A stretch of 22,718 nt of DNA, taken from positions 1 through 22,718 of IMG/VR virus record IMGVR_UViG_3300031403_000045, one strand, 5' to 3'. Shown here piece by piece: positions 3 to 21,903 of the stretch (positions within the stretch are counted from its first letter, which is position 1; the number at the start of each line of letters is the position of its first letter). This DNA comes from a virus. Under the pieces are notes generated by a model. It did no database searches. It worked only from the letters and a program-made list of their open reading frames with translations, and was not told the origin of the DNA. The translations under genes were made by a program, and so were the position numbers.

Positions 3-338
3 CAAAGAGGTTGTAAGTTTGGTATTGACGGCTTGCAAATTGTAAACCGTAACGCGACAAAACTAGACGTTACCGGCGGTATGTCACAAAGCGAGGTTGC
101 TAAAGCATTTGGCGCCGTTAGTATGGCGCCTACGCCTACGCCTACGCCTACGCCTACGCCTACGCCTACGCCTACGCCTACGCCGCCAGTAATGACACCA
201 CCACCGCCGCCACCGGCTAACGATCTCGCTAGTGGTAAAATAATGCTACCCGCGGCGAACGGCGTCCCTTACGACGCGTTTATCGCGCAAAATTGGACCG
301 ACGAGCAATTGATCGCTAATGGTTATATGCAAGCGTAA
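3..338 (+). CDS. C-terminal part of a phage protein with Thr-Pro repeat linker; possible ssDNA-binding protein
   Basis: The reading frame is open to the left edge, so the N-terminus is missing; a TTG at 33 is not needed as a start. Visible parts are a short folded-looking segment (GIDGLQIV ... GGMSQSEVAKAFG), then a nine-fold Thr-Pro repeat followed by a proline run, then a compact C-terminal segment ending in NWTDEQLIANGYMQA. The linker plus short C-terminal tail, and the position just before the DNA polymerase block, fit a replication accessory protein. The segment before the linker faintly resembles the end of phage ssDNA-binding proteins of the DUF2815 type. That assignment is inference and weak. 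A terminator follows directly at 347-374. Confidence 0.6.
   Translation, partial: QRGCKFGIDGLQIVNRNATKLDVTGGMSQSEVAKAFGAVSMAPTPTPTPTPTPTPTPTPTPPVMTPPPPPPANDLASGKIMLPAANGVPYDAFIAQNWTDEQLIANGYMQA
129..182 (+). repeat. Hexanucleotide tandem repeat (CCTACG) x9
   Basis: Nine perfect copies of CCTACG lie inside the first gene and encode alternating Thr and Pro. Because the unit is six bases, copy-number changes would lengthen or shorten the linker without breaking the frame. Perfect identity suggests recent expansion by slippage. Confidence 0.95.
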
Positions 339-4553: not shown

Positions 4554-4987
4554 TACGTACCGCCGCCACCTAGATTAGTTGCTGTAAATGTAACGACAAT
4601 ACTGTCTGTATTATCAGTGTTTAGTTTCTGCCTGATAGTCACAGTAACGTTTGCATTTTTAGTGCCTGCTTCTACTGGCGGCGTAAGCGTCCATGTCGTA
4701 CCTAGCGCACTAATGGCTATCCATGAATTAAGCGTACCCGACACGGCATCACCAGTGTTTTGCACCGCGCGTACCTCGTATTTATCCGAATCAAGCCCTG
4801 CCGCGTCGTCAACCCAAGTACCGTCAGTATTTGCATCGTAAGTACCGTTTTGCCTAATGGTAAAATCCGCAGAATCTAAAGGGTTCGTTGTAGAGGTCGC
4901 GGCACTAGCGGGGTTAAAGTTTACAGGTTCACCCGCAACCACGCTCGATGCGTTTACACCGAGTAATACTTGTGTCATTACTGCCAT
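4553..4987 (-). CDS. Small Ig-like or beta-rich virion-associated protein
   Basis: 144 aa from the ATG at 4987, chosen because it forms TAATG with the stop of the tail fibre gene and has GGGG eight bases upstream; a longer frame to 5047 lacks support. The product begins MAVMTQVLLGVNASSVVAGE and is rich in Thr, Val, Asn and Asp with alternating hydrophobics (TWTLTPPVEAG, VTVTIRQKLN, SIVVTFTATNL), ending in four Gly and Thr. This looks like one or two Ig-like beta-sandwich domains. Being directly after the tail fibre, it may be a fibre accessory or a surface-decorating protein. No family recognised. Confidence 0.7.
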   Translation of the reverse strand: MAVMTQVLLGVNASSVVAGEPVNFNPASAATSTTNPLDSADFTIRQNGTYDANTDGTWVDDAAGLDSDKYEVRAVQNTGDAVSGTLNSWIAISALGTTWTLTPPVEAGTKNANVTVTIRQKLNTDNTDSIVVTFTATNLGGGGT

Positions 4988-7092: not shown

Positions 7093-9253
7093 TTTCGCTA
7101 TCCCCGTTGTCTAGTTCGGTAGTGGTAACTACAATTTCACGACTTGCCGCACGTATAGCCGCATCAGGCACACCCGCATCGCTTAAATTCTTAAACAGTA
7201 TACGCGCTTGTTCTTGCCCTATACTCTGACCCGCAATGATACGCTGAGTTGTTTTAAGCGACAATCCTTTTGCTAGTCCCGCACCTGCCGGTAGACCCTT
7301 AATACCTAAGATTGGTGTTAAAACACTCCCTAGCAAAATAGTGGCTAAAGCTTTCTCATGTGCCGCAGGGTTTAGATTTGGCGTTTTAGCCTTAATATCT
7401 TTAAGTGCGCCTTTTTGAGCGTCTAGGGCTTCTCTTGCTTGGGGTAGCCCACGTCTAACGTCCCGAGCTTCACGTCGTATCGTTTTAACGCCTTCTGACG
7501 CGCTTGCCACACCTGCCTGCGCTTCTTCTTGCGCCGCTAAAGCACGTTCTAAAACACGTTGTTTTTCTTGCATGGTCTGTTGCGCACGTTCGGCTATAGT
7601 ATCTTGACCCTGACCAACATTACGCCGTTGTGACTTTAAACGTTCTGCCAACAACTGTTCAGTAGTGGCGAAACCGTTGTTAGCTTTTGAAGCTGTCTCG
7701 GTAGCCCCTCTAAAGGTTTCACTTGCCGCATACGCCGCTTTATCTGCGTTGAATGCCGCCGCTACATCATCAGGCAATTGACGCACCATGAAGTCGTCTA
7801 TTTCAGCCGCCGCATCTTTCAATACGAAAGACTCTAACGAACCTTTGCCACCGTCTGACATAGCGTTTGCACGTACTCTAAGAGCGTTACGCGCATTCAT
7901 CAATACGTCGCCCGTAACCTCGCCTGTTTGACGGTTCATTAAACCATTAGGCGATTGCGGCATACGTACACCGGCAAATTGTTCGCGCAATATTTTACCG
8001 ACTACGCCTTTACCGTCAGCGTCTAAATTAGCGCCGTACTTCTTAAGTATGTCGTCTGTCAAGGTGTCTAAGTTAACGTTAAACCGCGCTTGCTTAACCC
8101 CTTGAAACGCATAATCTCTGTTTGCTTCACGTAATAAACGGTTAGCTTCTGAACCGTCGGCATTACGTATAGCGGCAACAAGGTCGGGCGGCGTGTTAGG
8201 GGGTATAGCTTCATCGCGTACCTGCAACCTAAACGTAGCGTCCTGCTCCATAGCACGCTGATTTTTTGCCGCTTGTACTTGTTCTTTAGCCTTGTTTAAA
8301 CGCCCTCTAGCAGTGGTTACTAATTCGCCCGCATCATCTGCCCGCAGGTTTACTGCATCGGCGTTGCGCATTATTTGCGTGACACCGTCTTCCGCTTGCT
8401 CGACGCCTTCTTCCGCACCTTTAAGCACTAACCTACTACGGTCACGTATACTGCCCCCGCCAATCGCAGGTGCGACTATTTTTTGGTATAAGTTTTGTAT
8501 TGCACTACCTTCATCTGCTAGGTAGTTAAGGTCAGTAAAGGTACCGTCCGGCGCGTCTAAACTTTGCGCTATCCTACGCTTAATTGCCGGACTTACCGCA
8601 CGATTTATTAAGTCGCCTGCACCGCCCAATATAGGTGAAGCAACCCCGCCGATAATTGCACCGCGTGTAGCGTCATCGACCACGTTATCCATGTTCTCAG
8701 AAATACCCGCACCTGTTAAACCACCGTCAATTGCACCCACGGTTGCTAACTTACCCCCCGCACCTAGCGTTTTCGCTAGTCGGGGCGAACGACGCGCAAT
8801 GTTAGTAGCCGCTTGAGTAACTGCGCTACCGCCACGCGACGCATTAACCGCGTTGGTTGCCGTGTTGCCAAGTGCGCCAAGACCTTTAAACAATGCGCCC
8901 CCACTTGCGATACTCCCGCCCACGTTTAAACCTAGTGCGGTTAGTGGGTTTTCATCTGCGTACGCTTTTTTATCGCTTTCTATATCGCCTTTCATATCAC
9001 GGTATATGTCGCTAAAGCTTTGGTCAGTATCGTTTAACAACTTGTAAGCGCCTGCCGCAACCCCTGCGCCCACTTCATCGGCAAACCCAAAGGTCATGCC
9101 CTCAAGTGCCGCACGTGGCGCGTCGTACCAGTTACTCTCAAACTCAGGTTGCGTTGCGGGTTCAGGCGTTACCGGTGCGCTTTGTTTTGCGAACTTAGCG
9201 TAAGGGTTAGCGGTATTCGGTGCTTTTTTAAACTTAGCGTACGGGTTATCCAT
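7085..9253 (-). CDS. Internal virion / DNA ejection protein, 722 aa
   Basis: Large, Ala/Arg-rich protein that starts with a duplicated NPYAKF (residues 3-8 and 16-21). A segment near 40-120 follows that is common in phage internal proteins (ALEGMTFGFADEVGAG ... ENPLTALGLNVGGSIASGG), then Gly/Ala helices and long charged helices to about 635. A hydrophobic stretch near 645-680 (LATILLGSVLTPILGIKGLP) could enter a membrane. This is the profile of proteins carried in the capsid and released into the host envelope to form the DNA conduit. It sits in a row of three such genes before the fibre; its ATG overlaps the previous stop as TAATG. Function rests on layout and resemblance. Confidence 0.8.
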   Translation of the reverse strand: MDNPYAKFKKAPNTANPYAKFAKQSAPVTPEPATQPEFESNWYDAPRAALEGMTFGFADEVGAGVAAGAYKLLNDTDQSFSDIYRDMKGDIESDKKAYADENPLTALGLNVGGSIASGGALFKGLGALGNTATNAVNASRGGSAVTQAATNIARRSPRLAKTLGAGGKLATVGAIDGGLTGAGISENMDNVVDDATRGAIIGGVASPILGGAGDLINRAVSPAIKRRIAQSLDAPDGTFTDLNYLADEGSAIQNLYQKIVAPAIGGGSIRDRSRLVLKGAEEGVEQAEDGVTQIMRNADAVNLRADDAGELVTTARGRLNKAKEQVQAAKNQRAMEQDATFRLQVRDEAIPPNTPPDLVAAIRNADGSEANRLLREANRDYAFQGVKQARFNVNLDTLTDDILKKYGANLDADGKGVVGKILREQFAGVRMPQSPNGLMNRQTGEVTGDVLMNARNALRVRANAMSDGGKGSLESFVLKDAAAEIDDFMVRQLPDDVAAAFNADKAAYAASETFRGATETASKANNGFATTEQLLAERLKSQRRNVGQGQDTIAERAQQTMQEKQRVLERALAAQEEAQAGVASASEGVKTIRREARDVRRGLPQAREALDAQKGALKDIKAKTPNLNPAAHEKALATILLGSVLTPILGIKGLPAGAGLAKGLSLKTTQRIIAGQSIGQEQARILFKNLSDAGVPDAAIRAASREIVVTTTELDNGDSENE

Positions 9254-10443
9254 TACTTAAACCCCTCTGGTAGGTACCCAAATTGGTATTCAAAAAAATC
9301 AGCAGATTCGGGGTCATCACGTAACATTTGCAACGCTTCTTCTGGTGCGTCTTGTATACCCGCTTGCGGCGTAACTTGACTACGTGATTTAAGCTCGTCA
9401 TCCCCGCCAGTAATAAAGCGTAAATTATTTTGGATGTAGTCCTCTCCCGCACCCTTTATGCGCACATTCTCTGCGGATACTTCCATTTTACGTTGTATTA
9501 TCTCGTTTATGGAATTTATACCTCTTTGTATTTGTTCCGCGTCCATACTTGGGTTAATGTTCGCCGCTTTCCATGCTTTTTGTTCTGATTCAGTTAACGC
9601 AGAGCCAAACAATTCGTTTCGTTCTGGGTTCTCATAGAAGTTTCTCCAATCTTGCCACCATGCCGCTTTAGCTTTTTGGTCGTCGTCGGATAAGAAAGAT
9701 GAATTTGTCGCTACAAAGTTGCTTAGTTCGTTAGCAAACGGCGCACCCTCTATTTTTTTACCGCCTATGGTACTTTGTGAAAACTTCGGCTTGAAACTAT
9801 CAATGACACCTACTGCACCCATGAAACGCTTTGATTGGTCTTCAAAAGCTGTACGTTCTCTGGATGTTAACCAACCCGTACCACGCCCGTCATACGCCGA
9901 GTTACCTTGACGCTCTTTACGTCGTAAACCATCCGGCGTTATAGGCTCAGCGTCAAAACCTGCACCCTGTTCAAACACTTGACCGCTATTAGTATCAACA
10001 TCATAAATAACTTCTGTGCCGTCGGGTCTGATAAAGGTTTCAGGAACGCGACGACCTGCATTTTGGCGCTGTGTCTCTTGCTGATTATTAAGCGTGACAC
10101 GGTTCGCAAAATTTTCGGCGCGTTCAACGCTCGACTGTTCTGCTTTACGGTTTTCAGCTTCGATAGCCCGTTTTAACGCTCTACCCTCGGTGTTTAACGT
10201 GCGTTGGTCGTTACGCTTCTCACTTGCTAAGGCTCTGTTTAAACGCCCTCTTTCACCTGCCGCGCTACGCACTGCACTTCCTTGCGTCTGTCCGTAGTTT
10301 TGCAGTTGTCCGATAGTTGATAAACTCATTAAGTCGGCGTCACCTAACTGCCCACGTAACGCGGCGGCTTGCGCCATCGCTTCTTGACTGTTAGGGTCAA
10401 CTTGACCACCCATCAACGCCTGTATTTCATCATATGTAGCCAT
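9253..10443 (-). CDS. Internal virion / DNA ejection protein, 396 aa
   Basis: Mostly helical, Gln/Arg/Ala-rich, with a charged region at about 60-115 (AGERGRLNRALASEKRNDQR) likely to be a coiled coil. The C-terminal half is more globular (KAKAAWWQDWRNFYENPERN near 255-275). It ends DFFEYQFGYLPEGFK. It has no enzyme motif that I can see; composition and place between two other ejection-type genes suggest a capsid-internal protein injected with the DNA. TAATG junctions on both sides imply coupled translation. Its RGRLN codons share a 16-base identical stretch with the 722-aa gene around a GTTTAAAC site. Confidence 0.75.
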   Translation of the reverse strand: MATYDEIQALMGGQVDPNSQEAMAQAAALRGQLGDADLMSLSTIGQLQNYGQTQGSAVRSAAGERGRLNRALASEKRNDQRTLNTEGRALKRAIEAENRKAEQSSVERAENFANRVTLNNQQETQRQNAGRRVPETFIRPDGTEVIYDVDTNSGQVFEQGAGFDAEPITPDGLRRKERQGNSAYDGRGTGWLTSRERTAFEDQSKRFMGAVGVIDSFKPKFSQSTIGGKKIEGAPFANELSNFVATNSSFLSDDDQKAKAAWWQDWRNFYENPERNELFGSALTESEQKAWKAANINPSMDAEQIQRGINSINEIIQRKMEVSAENVRIKGAGEDYIQNNLRFITGGDDELKSRSQVTPQAGIQDAPEEALQMLRDDPESADFFEYQFGYLPEGFK

Positions 10444-10895
10444 TACGCACCTCGTAGAATAGCCGCCATCGCGCCTTGAATACCTGCTTCTTTATCTGCG
10501 CTCAAACCTTTACGTTCCTCGGCGATGCGCTTCGCTTCTTTACCGCCTTTATACATGCCGATACCACGGGCTACACCTTCTAAGCCGCCGCCGCCTACTA
10601 AGACACCGTTTACGACTTGACCGTTTACCGGTGGTGCGTCGCGAAGTGCATTGGCTGACGCCATTTGCTCGTCAAGTGCAGAACTTTTACCCGCGTAGTC
10701 TTGACTGATTTGCGCAAGGTATTGTTCTTGTTCCGCAGGGGGTAGGGTTTTAATAAACTCCATAATACGCCCTAAGTCCATACCGTTCATTTGCCCCATG
10801 TTACCCGCAGGTTGCGCGGGTTGAGCGCCTAACGGCGACATTTGAGCGCCTTGCGCATCCATTGACGGTGGCATTTGTGGATTGAAATTCTGCAT
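10443..10895 (-). CDS. Small Gln/Met/Pro-rich virion protein
   Basis: 150 aa. The first 40 residues are low complexity, rich in Met, Gln, Pro and Ala. A helical part follows (IMEFIKTLPPAEQEQYLAQI near 44-63), then a Gly-rich turn (VLVGGGGLEGVARGIGMYKG), and a helical end. The small size and position ahead of the two larger ejection proteins recall the smallest of the three ejection proteins of P22-like phages, but there is no clear sequence match. Start at 10895 lies one base after the upstream stop, with GGGGA just before it. Confidence 0.7.
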   Translation of the reverse strand: MQNFNPQMPPSMDAQGAQMSPLGAQPAQPAGNMGQMNGMDLGRIMEFIKTLPPAEQEQYLAQISQDYAGKSSALDEQMASANALRDAPPVNGQVVNGVLVGGGGLEGVARGIGMYKGGKEAKRIAEERKGLSADKEAGIQGAMAAILRGA

Positions 10896-10896
10896 A

Positions 10897-12657
10897 TTAT
10901 TCCCCTAAAACTTTTGAGTAATCGACTTTCATAAAGCCTGAGTTATCTTGAATTATTGCATCAGGCATTATTCTCTCAACTTCTTGAGCAATTACCCCGA
11001 CACCCTTCATACCACGTTTAAACACTTCTGGCATTAGGTTGTTCCACGTCCAAGTATAGATGTTAAACCCGTTTGTCTCACCAACTTTGCGAATATTGTC
11101 TTTTAAGCGTTCATCACTGAACATACCCGCGATACTACCCGCACCGTTTATAGCGTTGTTTAACGCGCCATTACGTATGTTTGAACGGTCAACACTCCCG
11201 CTATAAGCGTCACGTGCCGCGCCTGTGTAGTCTACACCGCCTGCGTTCCCTGCTTGCGAGAAACCGTTGAAGTCAGGCTGTGCAACTTGCGCACCACTAA
11301 GCAACGCATTTAGCTCGTTAAGCGTCTGGTTACGGCGTGTATTTTCCTCGCCAATCTGGTTACTACGCAATCGGTTAATGTACTCTGCTTGCGTCATTTC
11401 TTGGTCAAACATCTGAGCATCACCGCGTAGCATCAATTCTTGGTCTGCGAGTGACAACTCTTGGTCTGCGCCTGCTCTACGTTGAATGAGTTCTTGACGG
11501 CTCATATCCTGTTGCAAACGAGAAATTTCATCTTGTGACATTCCCATTTGTTCGCCGAACATTTGCGCCCTACGCTCTGACTCCATGCCAAAGTCGCGCT
11601 CACTTTCTGCGCCTGCTTGGTTAATCGAGCTAAACTTCGCTTGGTTATACGCGTCATTTTTACCCATATTAAAGTTTTCCATAGCGGCGTCATACGCGGC
11701 ATCGCCCTCAGAAAGCCCACGGTTGCGTAAGTCAATTTGCAATTGCTCTTGCTCTTGCTCAAAACGCGGGTCTAGGCGCGACGTTGCTTGCCCGTACAAA
11801 GAATCTTCGGCGCTCTGGCGACCATCTTGCGCGAGTGAGACATCGTTTAAACCTTGCCCTACGTTACGCGCCGTTTGATTGTTTGTCGCTTCGGGGATGT
11901 AATCTAGTTCAGGTAAAAAACTACCTGCATTAGCCGACATTCCACGCCCTTGCGTTGACAACTGTTGGTTGTTACCACTGTAATCCGTCTGTTGATAATC
12001 ACTAGACGAATTAAAATCACCCATTATATTGTCATACGTAGTATCCATACTAGGCGGCGCTACGTATGGTTGCATAGGTGGTGGCGTGTATGCAGGCGGC
12101 GTAGCCGGTTGCCCACCGCCGGTAGACGGGTTGCTTATAGTAGGGTCATTCGGCGCGACTGGCGCAGAAGGTGTTTGCCCATTTTGCCCGTTTATGCTGT
12201 TAAAAGGGTCGTTATTTAAGTTACCTAAAGGGTCTAACCCGTTAACAGGGTCTAACGCAGGCATACCGGTGTTACCGCCTAAACTGCCATTGTTGCCGAA
12301 CATGCCCGAACCACCTGACGGGGTTGGCGGCGTGTAAACAGGTGAAGGACTACCTACCGATGGAAAACCGCCACCCATACCACCCCCTAAATCTGGAAAA
12401 GGGTTGGTTGGGAAGGGTACGGTTAAGCTTCTACTATCACCGAAGCCATCATCCATCATAGGATTACGACCACCGTATGAAGGCATCGCAGGCTGTGAAA
12501 AGTTAGCGTTTGCTTTAGTGCCGCCACTTATAAAGTTATTTTCTGGCGTGCCTAACCCCGTAGTCTGCATCATATTGCCTAGATTACCTTGATTCATCGG
12601 CATGTTCATACCCGTTTCATACATCGGGCTTGCTGAGTTTGGTTGCTGTTTAGCCAT
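10897..12657 (-). CDS. Tail protein ending in an S74 intramolecular chaperone domain
   Basis: 586 aa. Residues 1-260 are disordered-looking and rich in Gly, Pro, Asn and Met; 260-460 are Gln/Glu/Arg-rich helices (EQEQEQLQIDLRNRGLSEGD); the last 75 residues are an S74-type auto-cleaving chaperone: S514-D515-E-R-L-K519-DNI, then GFNIYTWTWN, GVGVIAQEVE and a terminal VDYSKVLGE. In the known endosialidase case the chain is cut at Ser before Asp with a Lys five residues on, and that spacing is kept here. It lies directly after the 156-aa connector-like gene (eight-base overlap) and ahead of the ejection genes, so it probably forms part of a trimeric tail structure such as a needle or tip. Exact role is inference. 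Confidence 0.85.
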   Translation of the reverse strand: MAKQQPNSASPMYETGMNMPMNQGNLGNMMQTTGLGTPENNFISGGTKANANFSQPAMPSYGGRNPMMDDGFGDSRSLTVPFPTNPFPDLGGGMGGGFPSVGSPSPVYTPPTPSGGSGMFGNNGSLGGNTGMPALDPVNGLDPLGNLNNDPFNSINGQNGQTPSAPVAPNDPTISNPSTGGGQPATPPAYTPPPMQPYVAPPSMDTTYDNIMGDFNSSSDYQQTDYSGNNQQLSTQGRGMSANAGSFLPELDYIPEATNNQTARNVGQGLNDVSLAQDGRQSAEDSLYGQATSRLDPRFEQEQEQLQIDLRNRGLSEGDAAYDAAMENFNMGKNDAYNQAKFSSINQAGAESERDFGMESERRAQMFGEQMGMSQDEISRLQQDMSRQELIQRRAGADQELSLADQELMLRGDAQMFDQEMTQAEYINRLRSNQIGEENTRRNQTLNELNALLSGAQVAQPDFNGFSQAGNAGGVDYTGAARDAYSGSVDRSNIRNGALNNAINGAGSIAGMFSDERLKDNIRKVGETNGFNIYTWTWNNLMPEVFKRGMKGVGVIAQEVERIMPDAIIQDNSGFMKVDYSKVLGE

Positions 12658-13120
12658 TTTGAGTATTCCTAAGTAACTGCGCTTGTAGTTGAGCTTCGCT
12701 AGGCGCTTTCATACCGTTGCTACCGCCTTGGTACCTTGGCACACCTAATTCACGGCGCGTTACTTGCGGCGCATCAGCCATCTTTTGAAACTTGTCGTAA
12801 TCGGTATCTTGTAGCAGTGTACCGCCTGCGCGTCCCATTAAACGACCTGCAAATTCACTTTTAGCGCGGTCTATACCTAGCTGTGAATCGAGCGCCGCTT
12901 GCGCTTCTGGCGCGAGTGTTTGATTCTGCGTCCATTTGGTGACAAACTCACCGGTTGCAGGGTCACGAACACGTTCGCTACCATATGATAAGCTACCCCA
13001 CGGGTTGTTTTGGTCGATACGATTAGCCCACGTTTGGTCGCGGATAGCTTCTCTATTTGACTCGCCTGTCGCTTCTGCCGCACCTTGGTAGTCTGGTGCT
13101 CTTGGTGTTGACTTACCCAT
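12650..13120 (-). CDS. Conserved podovirus tail/connector protein, 156 aa
   Basis: Starts with PDYQGAAEATGESNREAI, then TWANRIDQNNPWGSLSYG, a pattern seen at the N-terminus of proteins in many podovirus tail modules, where it is sometimes fused to the following gene. Here it is separate and overlaps that gene by eight bases, so the two may be a split version of one protein. Residues 75-150 are helical (LAPEAQAALDSQLGIDRAKS). No enzymatic motif. Its ATG forms TAATG with the upstream acetyltransferase-like gene. Confidence 0.75.
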   Translation of the reverse strand: MGKSTPRAPDYQGAAEATGESNREAIRDQTWANRIDQNNPWGSLSYGSERVRDPATGEFVTKWTQNQTLAPEAQAALDSQLGIDRAKSEFAGRLMGRAGGTLLQDTDYDKFQKMADAPQVTRRELGVPRYQGGSNGMKAPSEAQLQAQLLRNTQNG

Positions 13121-13548
13121 TAGGATACCTCTCTATAATATTTACAATCTTCTTTACGCAACTCAAGCAAGACGTAATCCACACCTTGTTTAAACGCATC
13201 CTTTAGCCTTGCCACTTCTTTAAAACCAATTTTCTTATCAACTGACAACGCTTTTAAATTATCTGCGGGTACTAACGAATGTATCATTAGCCGCCCTGCC
13301 GTATTGTACACAAAATCGGCGATTTCGTTCAAAAAACCGTGCTTAACCGCTAATGGTACGTCTATGCATAAATGCGCTTGGCAACTCGTTTCAGTCCAAT
13401 TATCCATGACGCAACCTGCTAAAAGTGCGCCTGTGTCTTTATCATACGCCAGTATAGACGTCATATCAGGTATCAATTGCACAGGATTGCGCAAGGTGAA
13501 CCAATCCCAATCGGTTTCGCTGTTAATAGAACGAAAGCCTACATTCAT
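13120..13548 (-). CDS. GNAT-like N-acetyltransferase
   Basis: 142 aa from the ATG at 13548, which overlaps the upstream stop as ATGA; a longer frame to 13569 has no ribosome site. The order of elements fits the GNAT fold: a strand TSILAYDKDTGALLAGCVMD, then NWTETSCQAHLCIDVP, a helix HGFLNEIADFVYNTAG, then LMIHSLVPADNLKALSVDKK and IGFKEVARL, with the C-terminal strand VDYVLLEL. Such genes recur inside the tail region of podoviruses. The acetyl-CoA loop (usually RGxGxG) is not clearly present, so activity is uncertain. It sits between the tail hub and the connector-like gene; the target could be a virion protein or a host protein. Confidence 0.8.
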   Translation of the reverse strand: MNVGFRSINSETDWDWFTLRNPVQLIPDMTSILAYDKDTGALLAGCVMDNWTETSCQAHLCIDVPLAVKHGFLNEIADFVYNTAGRLMIHSLVPADNLKALSVDKKIGFKEVARLKDAFKQGVDYVLLELRKEDCKYYREVS

Positions 13549-15179
13549 CGCATACCGCCAGTATTCCACATCACATCATAACTTTGTAAAAACGTGTCGG
13601 CTTGCGCTGAACCTTGCACCGCAATCGCAAGTCTGCGACCGATGCCTGAACCACCGACTAAAGTTTGTCGGTTAGTTTGTACGTTGCTCGTCCATACGGC
13701 GTTATCCCACAAAGCGTTGTCCCACCGTGAATCGCCCTCAAAACTAAGCGATGTAGTATCTGCCAATTCGGTGCGGTTATAGTCATATGAAAATTTAACG
13801 CGGTAGCTTAGCGCATCCGACGACATGAAATCAGGTCGAACGCTAACACCACGTTTAAACATGCCGCCGCTTTCGTAGTCGCCAAAGAAAAACAAACTTG
13901 AAAATTTTATAGCTTCGCCGTTTTGCATCACGCCAACTGGTGGGGTTATTTTTACGTTGTCGAGTTCTGCGTCCATTATTAACACGCGGTTATCAGACGT
14001 GCCGATATACGGCGTACCTTTCCACTCCACGCAACATCGCATAGGGATGTCACGCCACCAACCGAAAGAGTTTTTAGGGATGTCATAGACATACTGCAAA
14101 AACTGCCCGTTATTCCTAACCGGCGTACTTAAGACCATAGACGATATAGATGGAAAATAGCTAATGCCCCAACCTAGTTCGCCTGCGTAAAGTTTAATAT
14201 CTTCACGTAGGTAATACGCAGTTTTAGCGCCAATACCTTCGGTACTTAACGGAGCGCCAATACCTTGCAATAGTTGGGATAGTGGCGTTATGCCTTGCAC
14301 CGATAAAATATGTAAGTCACCGCCAAATTCGCTTGCGCATCGTACACCGCCAACAATTTGACCGACGTAATATACGCCACGTAGTTGCCATTCATCAGCG
14401 CCAATAGCTTCGGGGTCAGCACCTTGGTAAGGTAGTACATCACCGGCTGAACTTACACCGACTAAATAATCGTCAATACCTGAACCGCCGTCGATAGTCC
14501 AACTGAACAAACCTTGCAGTATACCCCCGCGTTTAAACTTGTTACCGAACTGGAATAACGTCGCCGCACCTGCAATCGCCCCTACATCTAAGTAGTAAGC
14601 ATCAGAAGAATTGCGCAAAGCAAACCAAATACGTTGTTTATGAACCACTACAAATACAATGTTTTCAGCGTCTATGCCAGTTATGCCAGTAGTTTGCGCC
14701 CAAGTATCAGTATCTCTTGTGTATGTGAATAAGCCGTTTTCGGTGTCTGCGTAGAACAAAAGGTCATCACCTGCATCGGTTACGTAGTGTTGAAACACCC
14801 CGACACCTGCTCTGCCTGAAACGTTATTGAACGCAATCTTTGATACCGGAGTGTCAAGCGTTGTTACGTCCCAAATACCTTCGTTAGTCGCGGCAAATAG
14901 TCGTTGTTCTGAGGGGTCTACCGTCGACGGGTCATAAGGGATTAAGGTTCTTACGCCTAAACCGTCGGTAGTCTCTAAATCAATTGCCCATTCGCGGTAG
15001 CCCTTGCGTACTTTCATGCCGATTTCATCAGACATTAGATTGTACGTGTATACCGCTAAATCAGGGTTAGGGCGTGATAACTGAGCGCGGCCATCCATTC
15101 CACCGCTAGGCGCGGGGAAACTAGCCACTTGAGCAGTTGGCGTTATAGCGCGTTTAAACGACTTACGTTGAAGTGCCAT
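13545..15179 (-). CDS. Tail hub / nozzle protein (P22 gp10 or T7 gp12-like role)
   Basis: 544 aa from ATG 15179; a GTG at 15191 is a weaker alternative. Beta-rich throughout with repeated short blades (EGIWDVTT, ENGLFTYTRDTDTWAQTTGI, WGISYFPSISSMVLSTP, GTPYIGTSDNRVLIMD), typical of the propeller-like tail hub of podoviruses that closes the portal channel. It follows the adaptor gene directly (17-base overlap), as in related phages. It should form the hexameric tube end to which fibres attach. It contains three GTTTAAAC sites (13853, 14531, 15152), each in a Phe-Lys-Arg context. Confidence 0.82.
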   Translation of the reverse strand: MALQRKSFKRAITPTAQVASFPAPSGGMDGRAQLSRPNPDLAVYTYNLMSDEIGMKVRKGYREWAIDLETTDGLGVRTLIPYDPSTVDPSEQRLFAATNEGIWDVTTLDTPVSKIAFNNVSGRAGVGVFQHYVTDAGDDLLFYADTENGLFTYTRDTDTWAQTTGITGIDAENIVFVVVHKQRIWFALRNSSDAYYLDVGAIAGAATLFQFGNKFKRGGILQGLFSWTIDGGSGIDDYLVGVSSAGDVLPYQGADPEAIGADEWQLRGVYYVGQIVGGVRCASEFGGDLHILSVQGITPLSQLLQGIGAPLSTEGIGAKTAYYLREDIKLYAGELGWGISYFPSISSMVLSTPVRNNGQFLQYVYDIPKNSFGWWRDIPMRCCVEWKGTPYIGTSDNRVLIMDAELDNVKITPPVGVMQNGEAIKFSSLFFFGDYESGGMFKRGVSVRPDFMSSDALSYRVKFSYDYNRTELADTTSLSFEGDSRWDNALWDNAVWTSNVQTNRQTLVGGSGIGRRLAIAVQGSAQADTFLQSYDVMWNTGGMR

Positions 15180-15900
15180 AATTCGTATCACTCGTATTGA
15201 AAGTATTCAAAAGTCTAGCGCCATGATTGCCACGACCTGCGTTTAATATCGGTGCGCTCTTATCACCCGCCGTTATCTGCTCGTATACTTCCACAAGTTC
15301 AAGCTGTGCGGCGTTAGAGTCAAAACCTTTAGCGTTTAAAAACTTTACTTTTAGTGCGCATTCCATTAAGTAACTGTCGAACAAAGGGATGTCGCCGCCG
15401 GTTAATATAGCTTTAGCGGGCGTACCTGAGTCACCTGATAAAACTGATAGATTAGATACGTACTCGAATGCTATCTCTAAACCCGCAGGCGTAGGCGAGG
15501 GGAATATATTAAACTTACCCTGTGCAAGTCTAAAATTCACGTATATAGTTTCAGAAACTAAATCACGACCTTTAAGGTATTGCCACTGTTGGGCTGATAG
15601 TGAAGTTATGGGGTTTCTGTTTGTGCGCTCCCAACCTGTTTGGTCAATCATGCGTACGAAATCAAGAGGTAAGTCAAACTCACCAACACTACCCACGGGT
15701 ACGCTGATAAGGTGTTCTTTTTGTAGAAACTCCCAATCGTACGAGCGTACAAGCTGTTTTACGACTGAGTTAATAAGGTAGCGCATCTGAACAAAGTTAT
15801 CATCTGCGCTTGAATAGGGGTCAACGGACGGCGTTAAACCGACCTCAGCCGCTACCGTATTGATAATCTCGTTAACACTGGCTGAGGTCTGTATTGTCAT
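15163..15900 (-). CDS. Head-tail adaptor (tubular protein A-like)
   Basis: 245 aa. Pattern of podovirus head-tail adaptors: an N-terminal helix (VNEIINTVAAEVGLTP), then MRYLINSVVKQLVRSYDWEFLQKE near 49-72, then GEFDLPLDFVRMID, and a C-terminal helical bundle (LFDSYLMECALKVKFLNAKG). This protein forms a dodecameric ring under the portal and links it to the tail hub. It follows the 224-aa gene by three bases and precedes the hub, the expected place. Confidence 0.85.
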   Translation of the reverse strand: MTIQTSASVNEIINTVAAEVGLTPSVDPYSSADDNFVQMRYLINSVVKQLVRSYDWEFLQKEHLISVPVGSVGEFDLPLDFVRMIDQTGWERTNRNPITSLSAQQWQYLKGRDLVSETIYVNFRLAQGKFNIFPSPTPAGLEIAFEYVSNLSVLSGDSGTPAKAILTGGDIPLFDSYLMECALKVKFLNAKGFDSNAAQLELVEVYEQITAGDKSAPILNAGRGNHGARLLNTFNTSDTNYGTST

Positions 15901-15903
15901 TTT

Positions 15904-16578
15904 CTATTCCTTGGTAGTTCGTCTTTTGGCACGTGATGTACGGACTTCGGACGTATTGGGTACATCTAGTTCAACCTGTTCGGAATTTCCGCTTGTTGTC
16001 TCCATCGCGTTTAAACGTGCTTCCATTTGTTGAAGTGTAGACTCCAACTTGTTTGCACGTTGTTCAGCGACTTCGGCACGTTCTTCCGCTTCGTCTAGTT
16101 TTTCTTGCATCGCTAGAGGTACTTTAGTTTCTTTAGCCGCTTCTAGCCATTTTATAGCCTTAGCTTTTAAATCGTACCCGCCCATACGTTGACTTGCGAA
16201 ATTATCAGCAAGCGCCGCTAATTGCTCTACCGTCTTGACGTTAACAAACGCCAGTTCTTCGGCTTGAGAACGGCTAATCAAAGCCCATTCGATAAGTGGC
16301 GTACCTTCTAACGGCACTTCTTGGCGGTTTTTAAACGCTTCATAATGGCGAGGGAAACGACTAATATCAGCAGGTCTAGCAGGGCGACAAACATTTGATG
16401 TACGACTACCCGCGACACGAATGTCGACGTACTCTACATCTTTAAATACTGCGCGGTGTTCCTCTGCTGACTTTTCTTTGTCGGGCATTGTTTTGTGAAA
16501 AAATTTTACGAGTAACGCCGCATCACCTGCATTGTTACCCGATTCAAATAAAGTGTGATCAAAATCTGCTTGTTGCAT
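15904..16578 (-). CDS. Conserved hypothetical head/tail-region protein (224 aa)
   Basis: The first half looks globular (ALLVKFFHKTMPDKEKSAEE; VEYVDIRVAGSRTSNVCRPA), with GTPLIEWALISRSQAEELAF near 92-111 followed by NVKTVEQLAALAD. The latter resembles a helix-hairpin-like pairing seen in counterparts in other podoviruses. Residues about 155-195 are a coiled coil (LDEAEERAEVAEQRANKLES) and the end is basic (TSRAKRRTTKE). Strong ribosome site AGGAG eight bases before ATG 16578. It is the first gene after a predicted promoter at 16608-16636, with a GTTTAAAC palindrome between promoter and ribosome site. Function unknown; perhaps a neck or DNA-contact protein. Confidence 0.75.
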   Translation of the reverse strand: MQQADFDHTLFESGNNAGDAALLVKFFHKTMPDKEKSAEEHRAVFKDVEYVDIRVAGSRTSNVCRPARPADISRFPRHYEAFKNRQEVPLEGTPLIEWALISRSQAEELAFVNVKTVEQLAALADNFASQRMGGYDLKAKAIKWLEAAKETKVPLAMQEKLDEAEERAEVAEQRANKLESTLQQMEARLNAMETTSGNSEQVELDVPNTSEVRTSRAKRRTTKE

Positions 16579-16591
16579 TTGTATAACTCCT

Positions 16592-16599
16592 GTTTAAAC
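16592..16599. promoter_or_regulatory. GTTTAAAC palindrome at predicted transcription start
   Basis: It lies 9-16 bases downstream of the -10 box at 16608-16613 (minus direction) and just before the AGGAG ribosome site. A protein bound here would cover the start of transcription, the usual place for a repressor operator. Operator function is inference. Confidence 0.5.
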
Positions 16600-16607
16600 G
16601 AGGTTAC

Positions 16608-16636
16608 AGTATATGCCACCTATCAGATTTTGACAA
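16608..16636 (-). promoter_or_regulatory. Sigma70-like promoter for the tail block
   Basis: On the minus strand, TTGTCA (-35, 16636-16631), exactly 17 bases, then TATACT (-10, 16613-16608). Each box matches consensus at five of six positions. It lies in a 61-base gap just after the stop of the small head protein and ahead of the 224-aa gene, so it would restart transcription for the tail and ejection genes downstream of the capsid terminator. Confidence 0.65.
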
Positions 16637-16639
16637 ACA

Positions 16640-17053
16640 TTACGCTACGGGTATCTCGCCCCATGCCCAATCACCAGAAACTAACGCTTGACCAGTGCGG
16701 TTACGCGCACCAGTAGTTGCGTCGATTACTGCATCTATTGCCACTGCTCCACCTGCTTCAACAAACGCAACGGTGTTATTAATATCCGCACCGTTAACCA
16801 CTTTTAGCGGGAAATCAGTAGTCGCGCCGACGGCTAGACCGTTACCCCCAATGTGTTGCGTAGGATGTGCGGCGGTGTCTTCAACACGTGAAAAGTCGCT
16901 TTCTTTAGGGTCTGCGACACCGGTGCAAATACCAATGTTTCCAGAATTAGAGCCTAAGTTCATACCACCTTCAAACTGACCGGCGGGGTAATTATCGTCT
17001 AACGCCGCTACCGCAACTGCGTTTAATGTATATGTTGGCAAATTCTTAGCCAT
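16640..17053 (-). CDS. Small head protein, candidate capsid decoration/cement protein
   Basis: 137 aa from ATG 17053, chosen because GAGG lies eight bases before it; the longer frame to 17101 runs through the terminator hairpin. The product starts MAKNLPTYTLNAVAVAAL and is Ala/Gly/Val/Asp-rich and beta-like (GAVAIDAVIDATTGARNRTG), ending SGDWAWGEIPVA. Position directly after the major capsid gene and size match the cement proteins of BPP-1-like capsids; I infer that role from context. It is the only gene between the capsid terminator and the promoter at 16608-16636. Confidence 0.72.
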   Translation of the reverse strand: MAKNLPTYTLNAVAVAALDDNYPAGQFEGGMNLGSNSGNIGICTGVADPKESDFSRVEDTAAHPTQHIGGNGLAVGATTDFPLKVVNGADINNTVAFVEAGGAVAIDAVIDATTGARNRTGQALVSGDWAWGEIPVA

Positions 17054-17075
17054 GATAAAATCCTCTAATTTAAGT

Positions 17076-17109
17076 AAAAAAGCCCCGCCGCGAATGCGCA
17101 ACAGGGCTT
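17076..17109 (-). terminator. Rho-independent terminator after the major capsid gene
   Basis: On the minus strand, AAGCCC plus TGTTGCG (17109-17097), loop CATT, then CGCGGCG plus GGGCTT (17092-17080) and a T run ending at 17076. The stem is 13 pairs including three G-T pairs, directly followed by six T. It would reduce transcription past the capsid gene. The hairpin overlaps no real coding sequence. Confidence 0.88.
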
Positions 17110-17116
17110 ATAAGTC

Positions 17117-17124
17117 GTTTAAAC
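17117..17124. repeat. GTTTAAAC palindrome between capsid gene and terminator
   Basis: It sits in the ten bases after the capsid stop (17135) and eight bases before the terminator stem. One of the four intergenic copies. Confidence 0.85.
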
Positions 17125-17134
17125 GCTTTTGGGT

Positions 17135-18130
17135 TTAGCCGTTAGCGTCAAAGCGTCCTTGGAACTGACGACCTGAACACGTCATATTACCCGCCCAACC
17201 AATGATTTGCACTTCGGCATCTTGGTTAGTCGCATAACGACGGTTAGGTGACAACGGAACCATATTACGGTTTACGTGTGGACGGTAATGTAAATAATCA
17301 GTATTCAAGAAGTAAGCCGTTCCTGCTGGAGCGCCCGAACCATTTGAACCGTTGTATATACCACCATCTAGCACAACATCAGCATCCATGAATTTAACAC
17401 TCATAAAGCCTGCATCAGCACTTTGAGTGTTAGTGAAACGTTGTTGGGCTTGTAATGAAGCAATGTACGCATTCCATACCTGAGTATCAGCCATGATAAG
17501 GTCAGGACGTTCTTGGCCACGTACAAGCTCAGACCACAAGATATTCCAGTAACCTTGAATTTTAGTAGGGTCTAAACCGTTAGCGGCTGTTTGGTCACTT
17601 ACCGCGTTACGCCAGAATGCAAACGTGTCGCCATCAATCCCGCCGTAAGGTGCGGCAGTTGGGTCAACAGGTAGCGCGGCATCAAGCCCGTCGATTTCTT
17701 TACCGCCTGCGCCAGTACCATCAGAGTACAAACCACCGGTGATAAGGTTAGCAAGGGTTTTTTCAGCAACCGATAAACGCGATTCCATCAAGTCAATCAT
17801 CGCTTCTTTGCCTGAGTTTTGTAACTGCTCAAGACCAGAGATGACAACCGGTACCGCGGCTTGTTTCCAATCAAACTGCGCGGCAGACAATACATCACTT
17901 ACACCCGTAGGTAGGATGTCGTAACCTGAGTACCAACCCGCATTAGAGTTTTCAGCGAATGAAAGCTCTTGCATAATGTAAGTACCGCCAGAAACGGTTT
18001 TAATTTTGCCACTTTTCTTTAAACGGGCTAAAAGCGCGTTGTTATTTGATACGTTGTCGGCAATCTTTTTACTACGGTTTTCAATCGTAGTAGCCATGAT
18101 GTCCGAGATATTCGGGTTTGCAAAAGCCAT
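17135..18130 (-). CDS. Major capsid protein (HK97-fold, BPP-1-like)
   Basis: 331 aa, the size of BPP-1-type capsid proteins. The N-terminus NPNISDIMATTIENRSKKIA then NVSNNNALLARLKKSGKIKT is the family signature. A central part has SVAEKTLANLITGGLYSDGT, then DTFAFWRNAV, WNILWSELVRGQERPDLIMA and DTQVWNAYIASLQAQQRF. The C-terminus has YFLNTDYLHYRPHVNRNMVP and a closing QIIGWAGNMTCSGRQFQG. Strong GGAG seven bases before ATG 18130. It is the only late gene with its own long leader (the structured 18131-18321 region) and a terminator just after it, so its message may be separately controlled for high yield. No separate protease gene was seen next to it. Confidence 0.93.
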   Translation of the reverse strand: MAFANPNISDIMATTIENRSKKIADNVSNNNALLARLKKSGKIKTVSGGTYIMQELSFAENSNAGWYSGYDILPTGVSDVLSAAQFDWKQAAVPVVISGLEQLQNSGKEAMIDLMESRLSVAEKTLANLITGGLYSDGTGAGGKEIDGLDAALPVDPTAAPYGGIDGDTFAFWRNAVSDQTAANGLDPTKIQGYWNILWSELVRGQERPDLIMADTQVWNAYIASLQAQQRFTNTQSADAGFMSVKFMDADVVLDGGIYNGSNGSGAPAGTAYFLNTDYLHYRPHVNRNMVPLSPNRRYATNQDAEVQIIGWAGNMTCSGRQFQGRFDANG

Positions 18131-18321
18131 GTTAATGCTCCAATAAAGTTAAATTAAGGTTTATGTACCGTTGCTGTTATGTCGCTCTGTTTAAACAGTG
18201 GGCGAAAAGCTAGGGTTTAAAAAACCGAAATTGAGACTACTTGGAGTGTCCTTTGCAGGTGGCACTAAATGTCTATTTCAGGTTTTATTTTACCCTAGCC
18301 TAATACACTGTTTAAACGGTG
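18131..18321 (-). promoter_or_regulatory. Structured leader between scaffold and capsid genes
   Basis: 191 non-coding bases in an otherwise gapless operon. The region starts at the base after the scaffold stop codon and is filled by a nested inverted repeat (18185-18321), followed by an A/T-rich 54-base leader ending in the GGAG ribosome site. I found no convincing -35/-10 pair, so the element may act as RNA in the capsid message, as a DNA site, or both. Confidence 0.7.
18185..18321. repeat. Nested inverted repeat with GTTTAAAC outer arms
   Basis: Pairs, read on the plus strand: outer arms CTCTGTTTAAACAGTG (18185-18200) with CACTGTTTAAACGGTG (18306-18321), 14 of 16 plus one G-T. Next come GCTAGGGT (18209-18216) with ACCCTAGC (18292-18299); AAAACC (18221-18226) with GGTTTT (18281-18286); GAAAT (18227-18231) with ATTTC (18275-18279); GAC (18235-18237) with GTC (18271-18273); and AGTGTCC (18245-18251) with GGCACT (18261-18266), one base bulged. 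The end loop is TTTGCAGGT. In all this gives more than 40 pairs in 137 bases, all nested in order. Confidence 0.85.
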
Positions 18322-19371
18322 TCAAGTCCTACCGGTACTCGACGCGTTCCAGTTTGCTTCTAGCTGTGAACGTAGGTCTAAATTACCGTTGTCACTTGGT
18401 ACTCCCCCACGATTTCCACGTATCCCTGACGCCGCTAGTTGACGTTGCCCCATTTCTTTAGCCGTACCGCGCCCGCGTATTACTTTCTGAATCTCAGGGT
18501 TCAGCATTACTGCTTTTTCATACGCCTGTTCCAAAGTAATCGTCTGCCCACGCTTGGTCGCAAGCTCTACAATATCAGCCATGTCGACACGCACATCGTT
18601 AAAAAATTCTTTCTGTGCTACCGCGTTTACACTGCTTGCCGCACGTTGCTTGACTTGGTAATCTTGTTCTTGTCTTGAACGTTGGCGTTCTTGCTCGAAC
18701 GGGGCAAGCCGTTGGTTTAACATTTCTTCAAACTGGCTAGGCATTTGCCCGTTACTATCGGCTTGGGGTTCTTCACCGGCGAGTATCGAGTCTAAAGCTT
18801 CAATATCTATACCGTAATGTTTAATCAAACCGGCAAGGCGTTGCGCTTTTTGTTGTGTGTTACCCATAGACAGCGCGGCGGCGGTTTCTAACAAACCGTT
18901 TACCGCTTGTAGGGGGTCTTGTACGCCTTGCGACGCCATCAGCGAACGATACGGCTCAACCGTCTTACCAAACTCCTGATGTAATTTACGAGCATCAGAA
19001 GTGTCTTGCAAAAGTTTATTGACTTCCGCTTCGCGCTTGCTAACCTGTTTGCGTACACTATCGGGTAATTTTGCCCAATGCTCCCTTGTTTCTGGCGTCC
19101 ATCCAACCGGCGGCTTTTCGGTTTTACTGCTTGTGCCTGCTTGTTGTTGGTCGGATGGTTCGCCATCTTTTTCGGCGTTTTCAGCATCGGCAAAATCATC
19201 GCCGTCCGTAGCATCATCCGGTGTTGGTTCACCTACGCTTTCGCTATCATCCATTTCAGCATGTGCGCCCTCGTCGGGCGGGTCGATTACCGAAGTATCG
19301 ACGCTTTCGTTATCATCTGCATCGTCACTGCCTGACATTGCTTGCTCTAAGGCTTGTCTTAGTTCACTCAT
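18322..19371 (-). CDS. Capsid scaffold protein
   Basis: 349 aa, directly before the major capsid gene. Residues 1-75 are extremely acidic and disordered (Asp, Glu, Ser repeats such as SGSDDADDNESVDTSVIDPP). The rest is helical and Gln-rich (VGWTPETREHWAKLPDSVRK, HQEFGKTVEPYRSLMASQGV, MLNQRLAPFEQERQRSRQEQ). The end is a short basic/polar segment (LRSQLEANWNASSTGRT) of the kind that docks scaffold to coat protein. It should assemble inside the procapsid and leave before packaging. Its start overlaps the 136-aa gene by four bases (ATGA). The inverted repeat begins one base after its TGA. Confidence 0.85.
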   Translation of the reverse strand: MSELRQALEQAMSGSDDADDNESVDTSVIDPPDEGAHAEMDDSESVGEPTPDDATDGDDFADAENAEKDGEPSDQQQAGTSSKTEKPPVGWTPETREHWAKLPDSVRKQVSKREAEVNKLLQDTSDARKLHQEFGKTVEPYRSLMASQGVQDPLQAVNGLLETAAALSMGNTQQKAQRLAGLIKHYGIDIEALDSILAGEEPQADSNGQMPSQFEEMLNQRLAPFEQERQRSRQEQDYQVKQRAASSVNAVAQKEFFNDVRVDMADIVELATKRGQTITLEQAYEKAVMLNPEIQKVIRGRGTAKEMGQRQLAASGIRGNRGGVPSDNGNLDLRSQLEANWNASSTGRT

Positions 19372-19778
19372 TTTAAAATACCTGCTTTGTGTAAGTTATG
19401 CTCGATTAGCTGTTGCCTTTCTCGCTTGGCTTGTGGGTTATCCCCAATTTGTTCGCGGTACATCTCTTTACCGCGTTTGGCGAAGTGTTCCTCGCTGTAA
19501 TCCCGTATATCCGTCACACCATGTTTTTTATTGTGCGCTCGAAGCTGTGACCGACACGAAATAATCGAACCGTCTATGGGTGACTTAAACGGCTCTATAT
19601 TCTTTTGAACGTTTGGCGACGTGGCGTTTAAACGGCTTTGCAATTCGTATTCTTCCCAATTTTTGTCAAACTCTGTTTTTTCCTTCGCACGTTTCGCCGC
19701 CAGTTCTTCTTTTGTACCAAAGATACGGTCAAAATTGTTCTCAAAGTTCTTATTTGTTGGTTTACTCTTTATCGTCAT
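19368..19778 (-). CDS. Conserved small protein between portal and scaffold (136 aa)
   Basis: Start set at ATG 19778 with AGGA seven bases upstream; a GTG at 19784 is less likely. The N-terminus is charged and helical (LAAKRAKEKTEFDKNWEEYE). Then comes the recognisable IEPFKSPIDGSIISCRSQLR followed by AHNKKHGVTDIRDYSEEHF, a pattern I know from proteins encoded next to portal genes in many phages, with no established function. Single Cys and several His give no clear metal site. It overlaps the portal end by 17 bases and the scaffold start by four. A head-assembly accessory role is inferred from context. Confidence 0.75.
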   Translation of the reverse strand: MTIKSKPTNKNFENNFDRIFGTKEELAAKRAKEKTEFDKNWEEYELQSRLNATSPNVQKNIEPFKSPIDGSIISCRSQLRAHNKKHGVTDIRDYSEEHFAKRGKEMYREQIGDNPQAKRERQQLIEHNLHKAGILK

Positions 19779-21903
19779 TGTCACGTCCTTTTAGTGTGTA
19801 TTCATCTTCGCGCTGTGCCGCTTCTAGCTCGGCTTTCGCAATTAACTCGTTTAACTTCGCTTCGGTCTTGACTTCCGTTTTCACGATGTCTGCTTCTGCC
19901 GCCGCGTTGGTCTGTGCGATGTTGGCTTCGGCGTCGTTAACTTGCTCGTTCATACGCTGAGTGTGTTTACTTTCCGATTCCATTTGTTTTGCCATTGCGC
20001 TTGCTTGAATTTCACGCATTTTAAAGATATGCATTTGCTCGGCAGTTTGAATATCCATTTGCATATCTTGTTGGCGTATCTGCATATCAGCCTGCGCTTT
20101 AGCTTGTATCTTCTGCATCTCTACTTGAAGTTGTGCTTGCTGTGCTTGCTGTTGCGCCTGCGCCGCCTGTTGTTCTGGTGACGGTTCTTTGTTCGGGTTC
20201 TCTTGTTCTTTCTGCGACGCTTCTATGGTGCGGTCAAGTAATGACTCGATTTGCTGTGAACCTTTGAAACCGGCAAGTCCCCACTGCATTAACTGCAACA
20301 CGAACGGTTCAGCTTCGGGGCGCTGTTGGATCATTGGCGTAACCGCCTGCATAAATTGGCTTAACCCGTTTAAATACTCCATACGCTCTGCACGCATTTC
20401 ACCGTAGTCAATCATCGCCACTGATTCAGGACGTATAACAATAGACAGGTTTGAACGTTGAGGATTTTTAATAAGTTGTACCGCTTGGGGTACAAGCTGT
20501 GCATCAAAACTAGTCATCATGTTAGAGTTTTGCATGATAGTTTCAGGTGAGAAGAAACGCCCTATAATCTCGGCTTTAATCTCCATGATGTCACTGGCAA
20601 ACTGTGCAAACTGTTGTTGCAAGGCTTGCACACGTACTGAGCCAAACTTCGCTTTTTGCTTCGTCTGCCCTACACCTTCGTATTGATTTTGCAACTCCCC
20701 GCGCATGACATCAGCCATACCGGTAATCTGTTGGAGTAAACTAATAGAGTCGTTTCTAAGCATGGTTAAACGGTCTATCGCTTCGGTTATTGCGGATATA
20801 GGCATCCAATCAATAGAACCTTTTATACCCCCTTTCTCCGCAAACGCCGCCCATGAATCCACGGGTATTAAGGTGTTATCCGTCCCCTCGTTAAACATAC
20901 GTTGCACACCGTCAGCATTTTTGTCGTACACACCCACGGCTTTTACCGCTTCGGTAAGGATACTGATACGTGTTTGAAGCAGGTCTATTTCGTTGTACTG
21001 GTCTTCGGCTAACTTAAAGTCAGGCGTTGGCATGTACAATTTAGTTGTGGGGTTTGCCAGTAAAAACGGTGGGCATGGGTAGAAACCGCGCAGTTGTAGC
21101 GGGTCATCTTTAGTTTCCAATACCTTCTTGGTGTGCTTGCAAAACCAATAAACCTTGCGTTCAGCCATACACCAAATTTCCCACACCTCGGCTTGTTTAA
21201 TCTCTGAGGAATCTTCGTCGTTCTCTGATGCACCTTCGCTCACGTTCGCAGTACGGACGTTGTACTCTAAGGTTTTAGCAACGTCATCACCGAAGCGTTT
21301 TACCGCTTCTTCTTTGGTTAAGTAGTTCCTGAACGCAATCCAAGGTAGCTCGGCAAAGTTACGCGCCCAACCCCACAACACATCACCCCAATAGTAGTAA
21401 TCAATCGGTACTTTCTCATTGGTCGCGATGTCGTTGCCTAGCTCGTCTTGCGCCGTGTCATACGTGTAGCGCAGTTTCGCTGTGCCAAGACCTGCAAGGA
21501 GTCTATCTTGAAGCGCAGAACGCAACACGTTATCAATCTCTTTGCCGTTGACTTGGATGTCTTCGTTGAGCATTCTTTGCATGACTTCTGCGGCGACGCG
21601 GCTGATGTCATCGGATGCATCAGCGTAACGGCGGCTAACGTCAATCTTCGGCACTGAGCCGTATAGCATTGACTGTAAAGTCTCTACATTTGAGTAGAAC
21701 AAGTTTAAACGGCGCTTGTCGTCGCTCTTGGCGTCGTTATCCGATTTAAACCGGTCGACAATCTTGTCGGCTTGCTTATGCCATTTATCAAGGCGCTTTT
21801 CAGATGCTTTTATTTCATCGCACCAATACTTGCCATCGCGTTTATACTCGTTCTGGTCGTCTGCGGTGTCTTCGCCTTGGGGTACTTCGTAATTGTCTGC
21901 CAC
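19762..21903 (-). CDS. Portal protein (P22-like, with long Gln-rich coiled-coil tail)
   Basis: 713 aa, starting with GTG at 21903 and GAGG eight bases before it. Landmarks: WHKQADKIVDRF near 41-52, LNLFYSNVETLQSMLYGSVP near 66-85, VPIDYYYWGDVLWGWARN, YPCPPFLLANPTTKLYMPTP, YNEIDLLQTRISILTEAVKA, and LLQQITGMADVMRGE followed by GVGQTKQKAKFGSVRVQALQ. This is the usual order in P22/BPP-1-type portals. Residues about 565-700 are a long Gln/Ala/Glu helix, like the barrel or coiled coil of large podovirus portals. It forms the dodecameric DNA channel and contacts TerL (two bases upstream) and the adaptor. Confidence 0.92.
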   Translation of the reverse strand: MADNYEVPQGEDTADDQNEYKRDGKYWCDEIKASEKRLDKWHKQADKIVDRFKSDNDAKSDDKRRLNLFYSNVETLQSMLYGSVPKIDVSRRYADASDDISRVAAEVMQRMLNEDIQVNGKEIDNVLRSALQDRLLAGLGTAKLRYTYDTAQDELGNDIATNEKVPIDYYYWGDVLWGWARNFAELPWIAFRNYLTKEEAVKRFGDDVAKTLEYNVRTANVSEGASENDEDSSEIKQAEVWEIWCMAERKVYWFCKHTKKVLETKDDPLQLRGFYPCPPFLLANPTTKLYMPTPDFKLAEDQYNEIDLLQTRISILTEAVKAVGVYDKNADGVQRMFNEGTDNTLIPVDSWAAFAEKGGIKGSIDWMPISAITEAIDRLTMLRNDSISLLQQITGMADVMRGELQNQYEGVGQTKQKAKFGSVRVQALQQQFAQFASDIMEIKAEIIGRFFSPETIMQNSNMMTSFDAQLVPQAVQLIKNPQRSNLSIVIRPESVAMIDYGEMRAERMEYLNGLSQFMQAVTPMIQQRPEAEPFVLQLMQWGLAGFKGSQQIESLLDRTIEASQKEQENPNKEPSPEQQAAQAQQQAQQAQLQVEMQKIQAKAQADMQIRQQDMQMDIQTAEQMHIFKMREIQASAMAKQMESESKHTQRMNEQVNDAEANIAQTNAAAEADIVKTEVKTEAKLNELIAKAELEAAQREDEYTLKGRDNDDKE

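Follow-up and report, generated by a model that had tools for sequence, protein, structure and literature searches.

The gap between the scaffold and capsid genes of the virus studied here is rather probably a promoter followed by a structured 5′ leader of the capsid mRNA, with CCA/A modules that would be bound by a protein and thereby adjust expression of the capsid gene. Computational comparison with related phages resolves a folded structure on one strand, an internal-loop module with covarying flanking helices, a link to the capsid gene and a promoter signal. Kept in this place by many relatives, the module is, judging from sequence comparison, probably a docking site that sets the amount of shell protein.

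Locus and sequence sampling

The window, i.e. the entire stretch of DNA analysed, is a 22.7-kb virus record with late genes on the minus strand; all features described below lie on that strand unless (+) is given. The major capsid protein gene (17135..18130, 331 aa) was assigned to phrog_9953, major head protein (E 3.7e-111), and its ribosome-binding site UUGGAG (18138..18143) was read directly. The gene on the other side of the gap (18322..19371, 349 aa) codes for an acidic and glutamine-rich protein and is a probable scaffold gene by position and composition; family searches with this candidate gave no match. The gap is 191 nt long, and 137 of these were described in the initial annotation as a nested inverted repeat at 18185-18321 that begins one base after the scaffold stop codon (18322-18324). 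Both the coordinates and this starting point hold. When searched within the record, the 137-nt sequence was found as a single copy, with no further copies.

Capsid relatives were collected from viral contigs (80 loci and two further scans) and from bacterial genomes (50 loci), which yielded 293 usable upstream regions, 179 of them non-redundant. With gaps defined from mechanical open reading frames, a few gap lengths being wrong, the gap mostly measures 80-240 nt where the capsid is about 60% or more identical to a reference capsid and 5-30 nt in more distant capsids (about 45-55% identity). A capsid leader is found at the same place in more than 100 related phages. A tandem array of about ten CGCCTA units is present at 124-185 (+), close to the left end of the record; the open reading frame containing it is located upstream of a gene for a phage DNA polymerase.

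Folding of the gap

The 137 nt fold on the coding (minus) strand with −49.9 kcal/mol (z = −8.2), and none of 200 shuffles was as good; the nested pairing of the initial annotation is thus, for this single sequence, far beyond the shuffled range. Without the left arm the element still folds (z = −6.1), and leaders across the set fold strongly (mean z −2.6, n = 107). Only L003, L004, L005 and L006, four distinct close sequences, can be aligned end to end with the window.

In these relatives, the outer helix GTTTAAACAGTG/CACTGTTTAAAC is paired in 57.7% of cells, which equals the shuffles, and shows zero compensated changes, at a capsid identity of 93-95%. In contrast, the inner helices together with two small hairpins are paired in 96.1% of cells, and five base pairs show compensated changes. 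The comparison with relatives that was proposed at the outset as a possible refutation therefore divides the element: the outer arms fall and the inner hairpins stand. The left outer arm GTTTAAACAGTG (18306..18317) is spacer DNA of a putative promoter, and its pairing with 18189-18200 is not kept in relatives. The right outer arm CACTGTTTAAAC (18189..18200) is replaced by other loop sequence in relatives; in the window it competes with, and forms part of, a conserved separate hairpin (18182-18205, module 2 below) that reaches three bases past the feature as first described. The view of one continuous nested element is thus not confirmed, and the nested 16-base outer arms were rejected as a functional element because their pairing is not conserved.

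Inside the arms, helix P1 connects GCUAGGGU (18292..18299), which overlaps the −10 box, with ACCCUAGC (18209..18216); it is paired in 97.1% of cells and includes one compensated pair. Helix P2, formed by AAAACC.GAAAU.GAC (18271..18286) and GUC..AUUUCGGUUUU (18221..18237), is kept in five of five sequences, yet hardly varies. MAFFT misplaces the module 2 loop of L005, which by eye pairs fully (UUGC CCA CUC AAGAC GAG A GCAA).

Promoter signal at the scaffold stop codon

Neither a promoter nor a repeated CCA/A module was mentioned in the initial annotation. The −35 box TTGACA (18320..18325) is a perfect match to the consensus and contains the scaffold stop codon TGA (18322-18324), while the −10 box TAGGCT (18297..18302), separated from it by a 17-bp spacer, is a poor match. 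The whole arrangement, TTGACA-N17-TAGGCT, begins 4 bases ahead of the gap, and TTGACA-N17-TA[GCT][GC]CT is also present in L003, L005 and L006. The positional signal recurs among leaders: a promoter score of at least 7.5 was reached in 52% of 107 leaders, compared to 2.6% of random same-strand 80-mers and 3.7% in the 3′ parts of the leaders. In BUCT555, the same kind of signal occurs at this place without the module. From the position of the boxes, transcription is expected to start near 18290, so that RNA made there would contain neither the left outer arm nor the greater part of the P1 left strand.

Stems of at least 7 Watson-Crick pairs were detected in 26 of 61 promoter regions (4.25 expected). 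Among these stems, 21 span the −10 box, with sequences that differ between relatives; such promoter-spanning helices can form only in read-through RNA. Long 5′-terminal hairpins are found in the leaders of many relatives.

The CCA/A internal-loop module

The conserved unit is an asymmetric 3x1 internal loop, 5′-CCA-3′ opposite one A, surrounded by short, freely varying helices. Module 1 (AGUG CCA CCU GCAA AGG A CACU, 18245..18266) has compensated changes in both helices and an invariant loop. Module 2 (UCGC CCA CUGU UUAA ACAG A GCGA, 18182..18205) contains the right outer arm; in relatives its inner part reads CUC GCAA GAG, CUC AAGAC GAG or CUC UUAG GAG, with CCA/A unchanged. Since flanking helices and hairpin loop vary, it is the internal loop that is conserved. 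The two modules are the sole scan matches on the minus strand of the window.

The scan for internal loops was performed without prior choice of letters on 116 non-redundant capsid leaders, with dinucleotide shuffles as control. Of the 116 leaders, 40 contain the 3x1 loop CCA/A (0.85 expected) and 13 the mirrored 1x3 loop A/CCA (0.4 expected); every other 3x1 loop is limited to at most 3 leaders. About half of the leaders are without a strict copy; when the stem criteria are relaxed, one to three copies, in either orientation, are present in 66 of 116. The coding strand holds 53 module copies and the opposite strand one, and 52 of the 53 lie downstream of the promoter, at a median of 24 nt past the expected start. 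No module was detected in the other intergenic gaps of ten near-complete related phages. Counted as a possible sign of the RNA strand, G-U and A-C combinations inside the helices numbered 13 vs 15 and 8 vs 4 in two counts. Mx8 and Mx9, with only 3 outer pairs in G+C-rich DNA and an unclear minimum-energy fold, were not counted as support for the module.

The flanking helix was also examined in matches that had not been chosen by pairing, obtained by searching viral contigs for the exact 15-mer CCAGCCWCGGTAGCA; the counts refer to the matches listed. Capsid-linked matches among those listed lie 41-116 nt ahead of the capsid start, and all three flanking pairs are present in 21 of 21 distinct ones, each pair position being represented by three Watson-Crick pair types. 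Among distinct matches listed from elsewhere, 6 of 65 have all three pairs, and two of these six look like missed capsid-linked copies. For the listed capsid-linked matches, the flanking helix is paired in 100% of cells (68% when shuffled) and its covariation amounts to 0.728 vs 0.143 for shuffled sequences, a value reached in none of 500 shuffles. A covariance model of one subtype gave six significant matches in 398 kb, all of them within capsid leaders (weakest E 1.2e-4).

Other leader types and the dispersed palindrome

The CCA/A module is absent from a sister clade (L038, L048, L251, L255, L260, L266 and L286), whose leaders have up to three hairpins with the 8-nt loop AUUCA[AC]GC and varying closing stems. 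The leaders of a further cluster (L296, L299, L301, L302, L304, L310, L316 and L327) share, close to their 5′ ends, GGAACTAGGAA and then CTCCCAGCC...GCAGAT, a block that is possibly a degenerate module inside a longer helix.

The 8-mer palindrome GTTTAAAC is present in both outer arms and, as stated in the initial annotation, enriched: the 22.7 kb contain 17 sites, from 4463 to 21710 and mostly inside genes, compared to 0.5 expected from base composition. Beyond the window, the enrichment extends to the genomes behind L009, L010, L017 and L027; observed and expected numbers are 28 vs 0.9 in G001, 28 vs 0.4 in G006, 13 vs 0.4 in G004 and 13 vs 0.8 in G002. In G003, G005, G009, G012, G014 and G017 the palindrome is absent or rare. 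Its variant GTGTAAAC recurs in capsid-promoter spacers. Another late-block gap of the window (16579-16639) features a promoter-like TTGTCA-N17-TATACT at 16636 and a copy of GTTTAAAC at 16592-16599, just ahead of the next start codon.

Comparison with known systems

At the gathering threshold, Rfam gave no match in the window or in 20 relatives, and a permissive Rfam search of the gap returned chance-level matches only. Among open-licence papers, nothing relevant on a capsid-leader RNA motif of phages was found; a prior description elsewhere is possible. The leader belongs with structured mRNA leaders having modules that resemble protein sites, and its module is not in Rfam.

The nearest functional analogue is the rpsF leader, which has in common with the capsid leader a structured fold and unpaired cytosines between helices. 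The core of the rpsF leader is CCG; in the capsid leaders CCG/A occurs in 3 (1.2 in shuffles) and CCA/A in 40 (1.2 in shuffles). The rpsF leader is the mRNA site of the S6:S18 ribosomal-protein complex, with unpaired conserved cytosines between helices as the protein site, and regulates the gene just downstream (PMC4647458). It is present in one copy in bacterial ribosomal operons, and no Rfam match to the phage capsid leaders was obtained.

The C-loop, a known protein site in a viroid, is a 3x1 asymmetric loop between hairpin stems with C first in the long strand and A on the short strand, and is defined by two base triples with cis Watson-Crick/sugar and trans Watson-Crick/Hoogsteen pairs (PMC8983868). 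At the level of sequence, the CCA/A module agrees with it in the 3x1 format, the leading C and the A on the short strand. The two differ in that the C-loop example reads CAC/A, a loop that is not enriched in the leaders, instead of CCA/A. Unpaired letters CCA between helices are likewise known from the CCA bulge of the phi29 packaging RNA. That bulge is located in a separate packaging RNA, whereas the loops described here are repeated in an mRNA leader and stand opposite an A.

Proposed function and alternative explanations

Fixed loop letters, free helices, repetition and the use of both orientations make the module look like a protein-binding site, and its confinement to the capsid leader suggests that capsid synthesis is what is controlled; we infer both for this locus. 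According to the proposed mechanism, a host-type promoter at the scaffold stop codon would start a transcript near 18290, whose leader of roughly 160 nt would fold into hairpins holding the two CCA/A modules. The loops would be bound by a protein that is probably encoded by the phage; a virion protein is possible and a natural guess. The bound protein would set translation or lifetime of the capsid message and so match the shell protein to other head parts. P1 would be restricted to longer read-through transcripts, which it may mark or silence.

How a bound protein might act on translation was considered for the ribosome site. CUCCAA (18241..18246) is a 6-bp match to UUGGAG (18138-18143) and thus a possible partner, but within the group to which the window belongs this pairing does not exceed chance. 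Across the whole set, occlusion is modestly enriched (mean duplex −9.6 vs −8.1 kcal/mol; 32% in the best tenth). Since this enrichment is weak and not significant in the window's own group, Shine-Dalgarno occlusion was rejected as a general mechanism, and it is equally likely that binding alters the stability of the message or affects ribosome loading in a different way.

The initial annotation offered several uses for the repeat, and the one in line with our results is an RNA element in the capsid message, as the element is strand-specific, covarying and tied to the capsid gene. Such an element could also stabilise the mRNA or be a processing site for RNase III, as known from T7 late messages, with the hairpin being cut or blocking decay and no dedicated protein. 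The strong folding of the leaders and the long 5′-end hairpins of many relatives are consistent with this reading, which we regard as unlikely given that stability alone leaves unexplained why CCA/A is invariant and occurs in either orientation, when helices and hairpin loops are variable. The DNA-level uses suggested at the time, i.e. a cruciform, an origin of replication, a packaging site or a relic of an inverted-repeat mobile element, are strongly disfavoured and extremely improbable. The long inverted repeat and its two copies of the genome-dispersed GTTTAAAC favour them, but the outer arms are not conserved, the module is confined to the coding strand, its position is identical in the leader-bearing relatives (more than 100 phages) and the record holds a single copy. 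For the mobile element in particular, which is not supported, further copies are missing from the record and the leader occupies the same position in close relatives.

Gating as in phage T4 would place the promoter inside a hairpin that forms only in the read-through RNA and silences that RNA, which would leave the local promoter as the only one that leads to capsid production. The precedent are the leaders of T4 genes e, soc and 49, where a late promoter lies in the upstream strand of an mRNA helix that hides the ribosome site, and read-through and local transcripts fold differently (PMC3014915). The capsid leaders resemble them in having a promoter inside a read-through helix, with P1 over the −10 box in the window and −10-spanning stems in 21 relatives, part of the 26 whose number exceeds expectation. 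Unlike in T4 gene e, the helix excludes the ribosome site, since more than 45 nt separate that site from the ends of P1 and of the outer arms; moreover, a repeated internal-loop module follows the helix, which gating does not account for. As a replacement for the proposed mechanism we consider gating quite unlikely; it may be an additional layer rather than an alternative. Modules acting on RNA polymerase, in the manner of put antitermination in phage HK022 and allowing transcription through the long late operon, would fit their position just past a promoter heading a long gene block, but the same phages have no module in any other intergenic region, and this explanation is very doubtful. A search for a single-subunit RNA polymerase gave no match in the near-complete relative G001, and likewise none in control genomes.

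Returning to the protein-bound capsid leader, a broader proposal is put forward tentatively: the leaders could represent a new class of phage RNA operators. In this view, a head protein of a tailed dsDNA phage would regulate its own capsid message through one to three orientation-independent CCA/A loops, and the sister clade would have exchanged them for another module with the same job. Control of head-protein stoichiometry in such phages is attributed for the most part to promoters, operon order and the assembly process. That dozens of distinct phages have a conserved RNA module at a fixed place in the capsid leader points to specific control of capsid synthesis at the RNA level. This question can now be tested with one short RNA and few candidate proteins, and a fixed internal loop used in both orientations would be a useful new unit of RNA-protein recognition.
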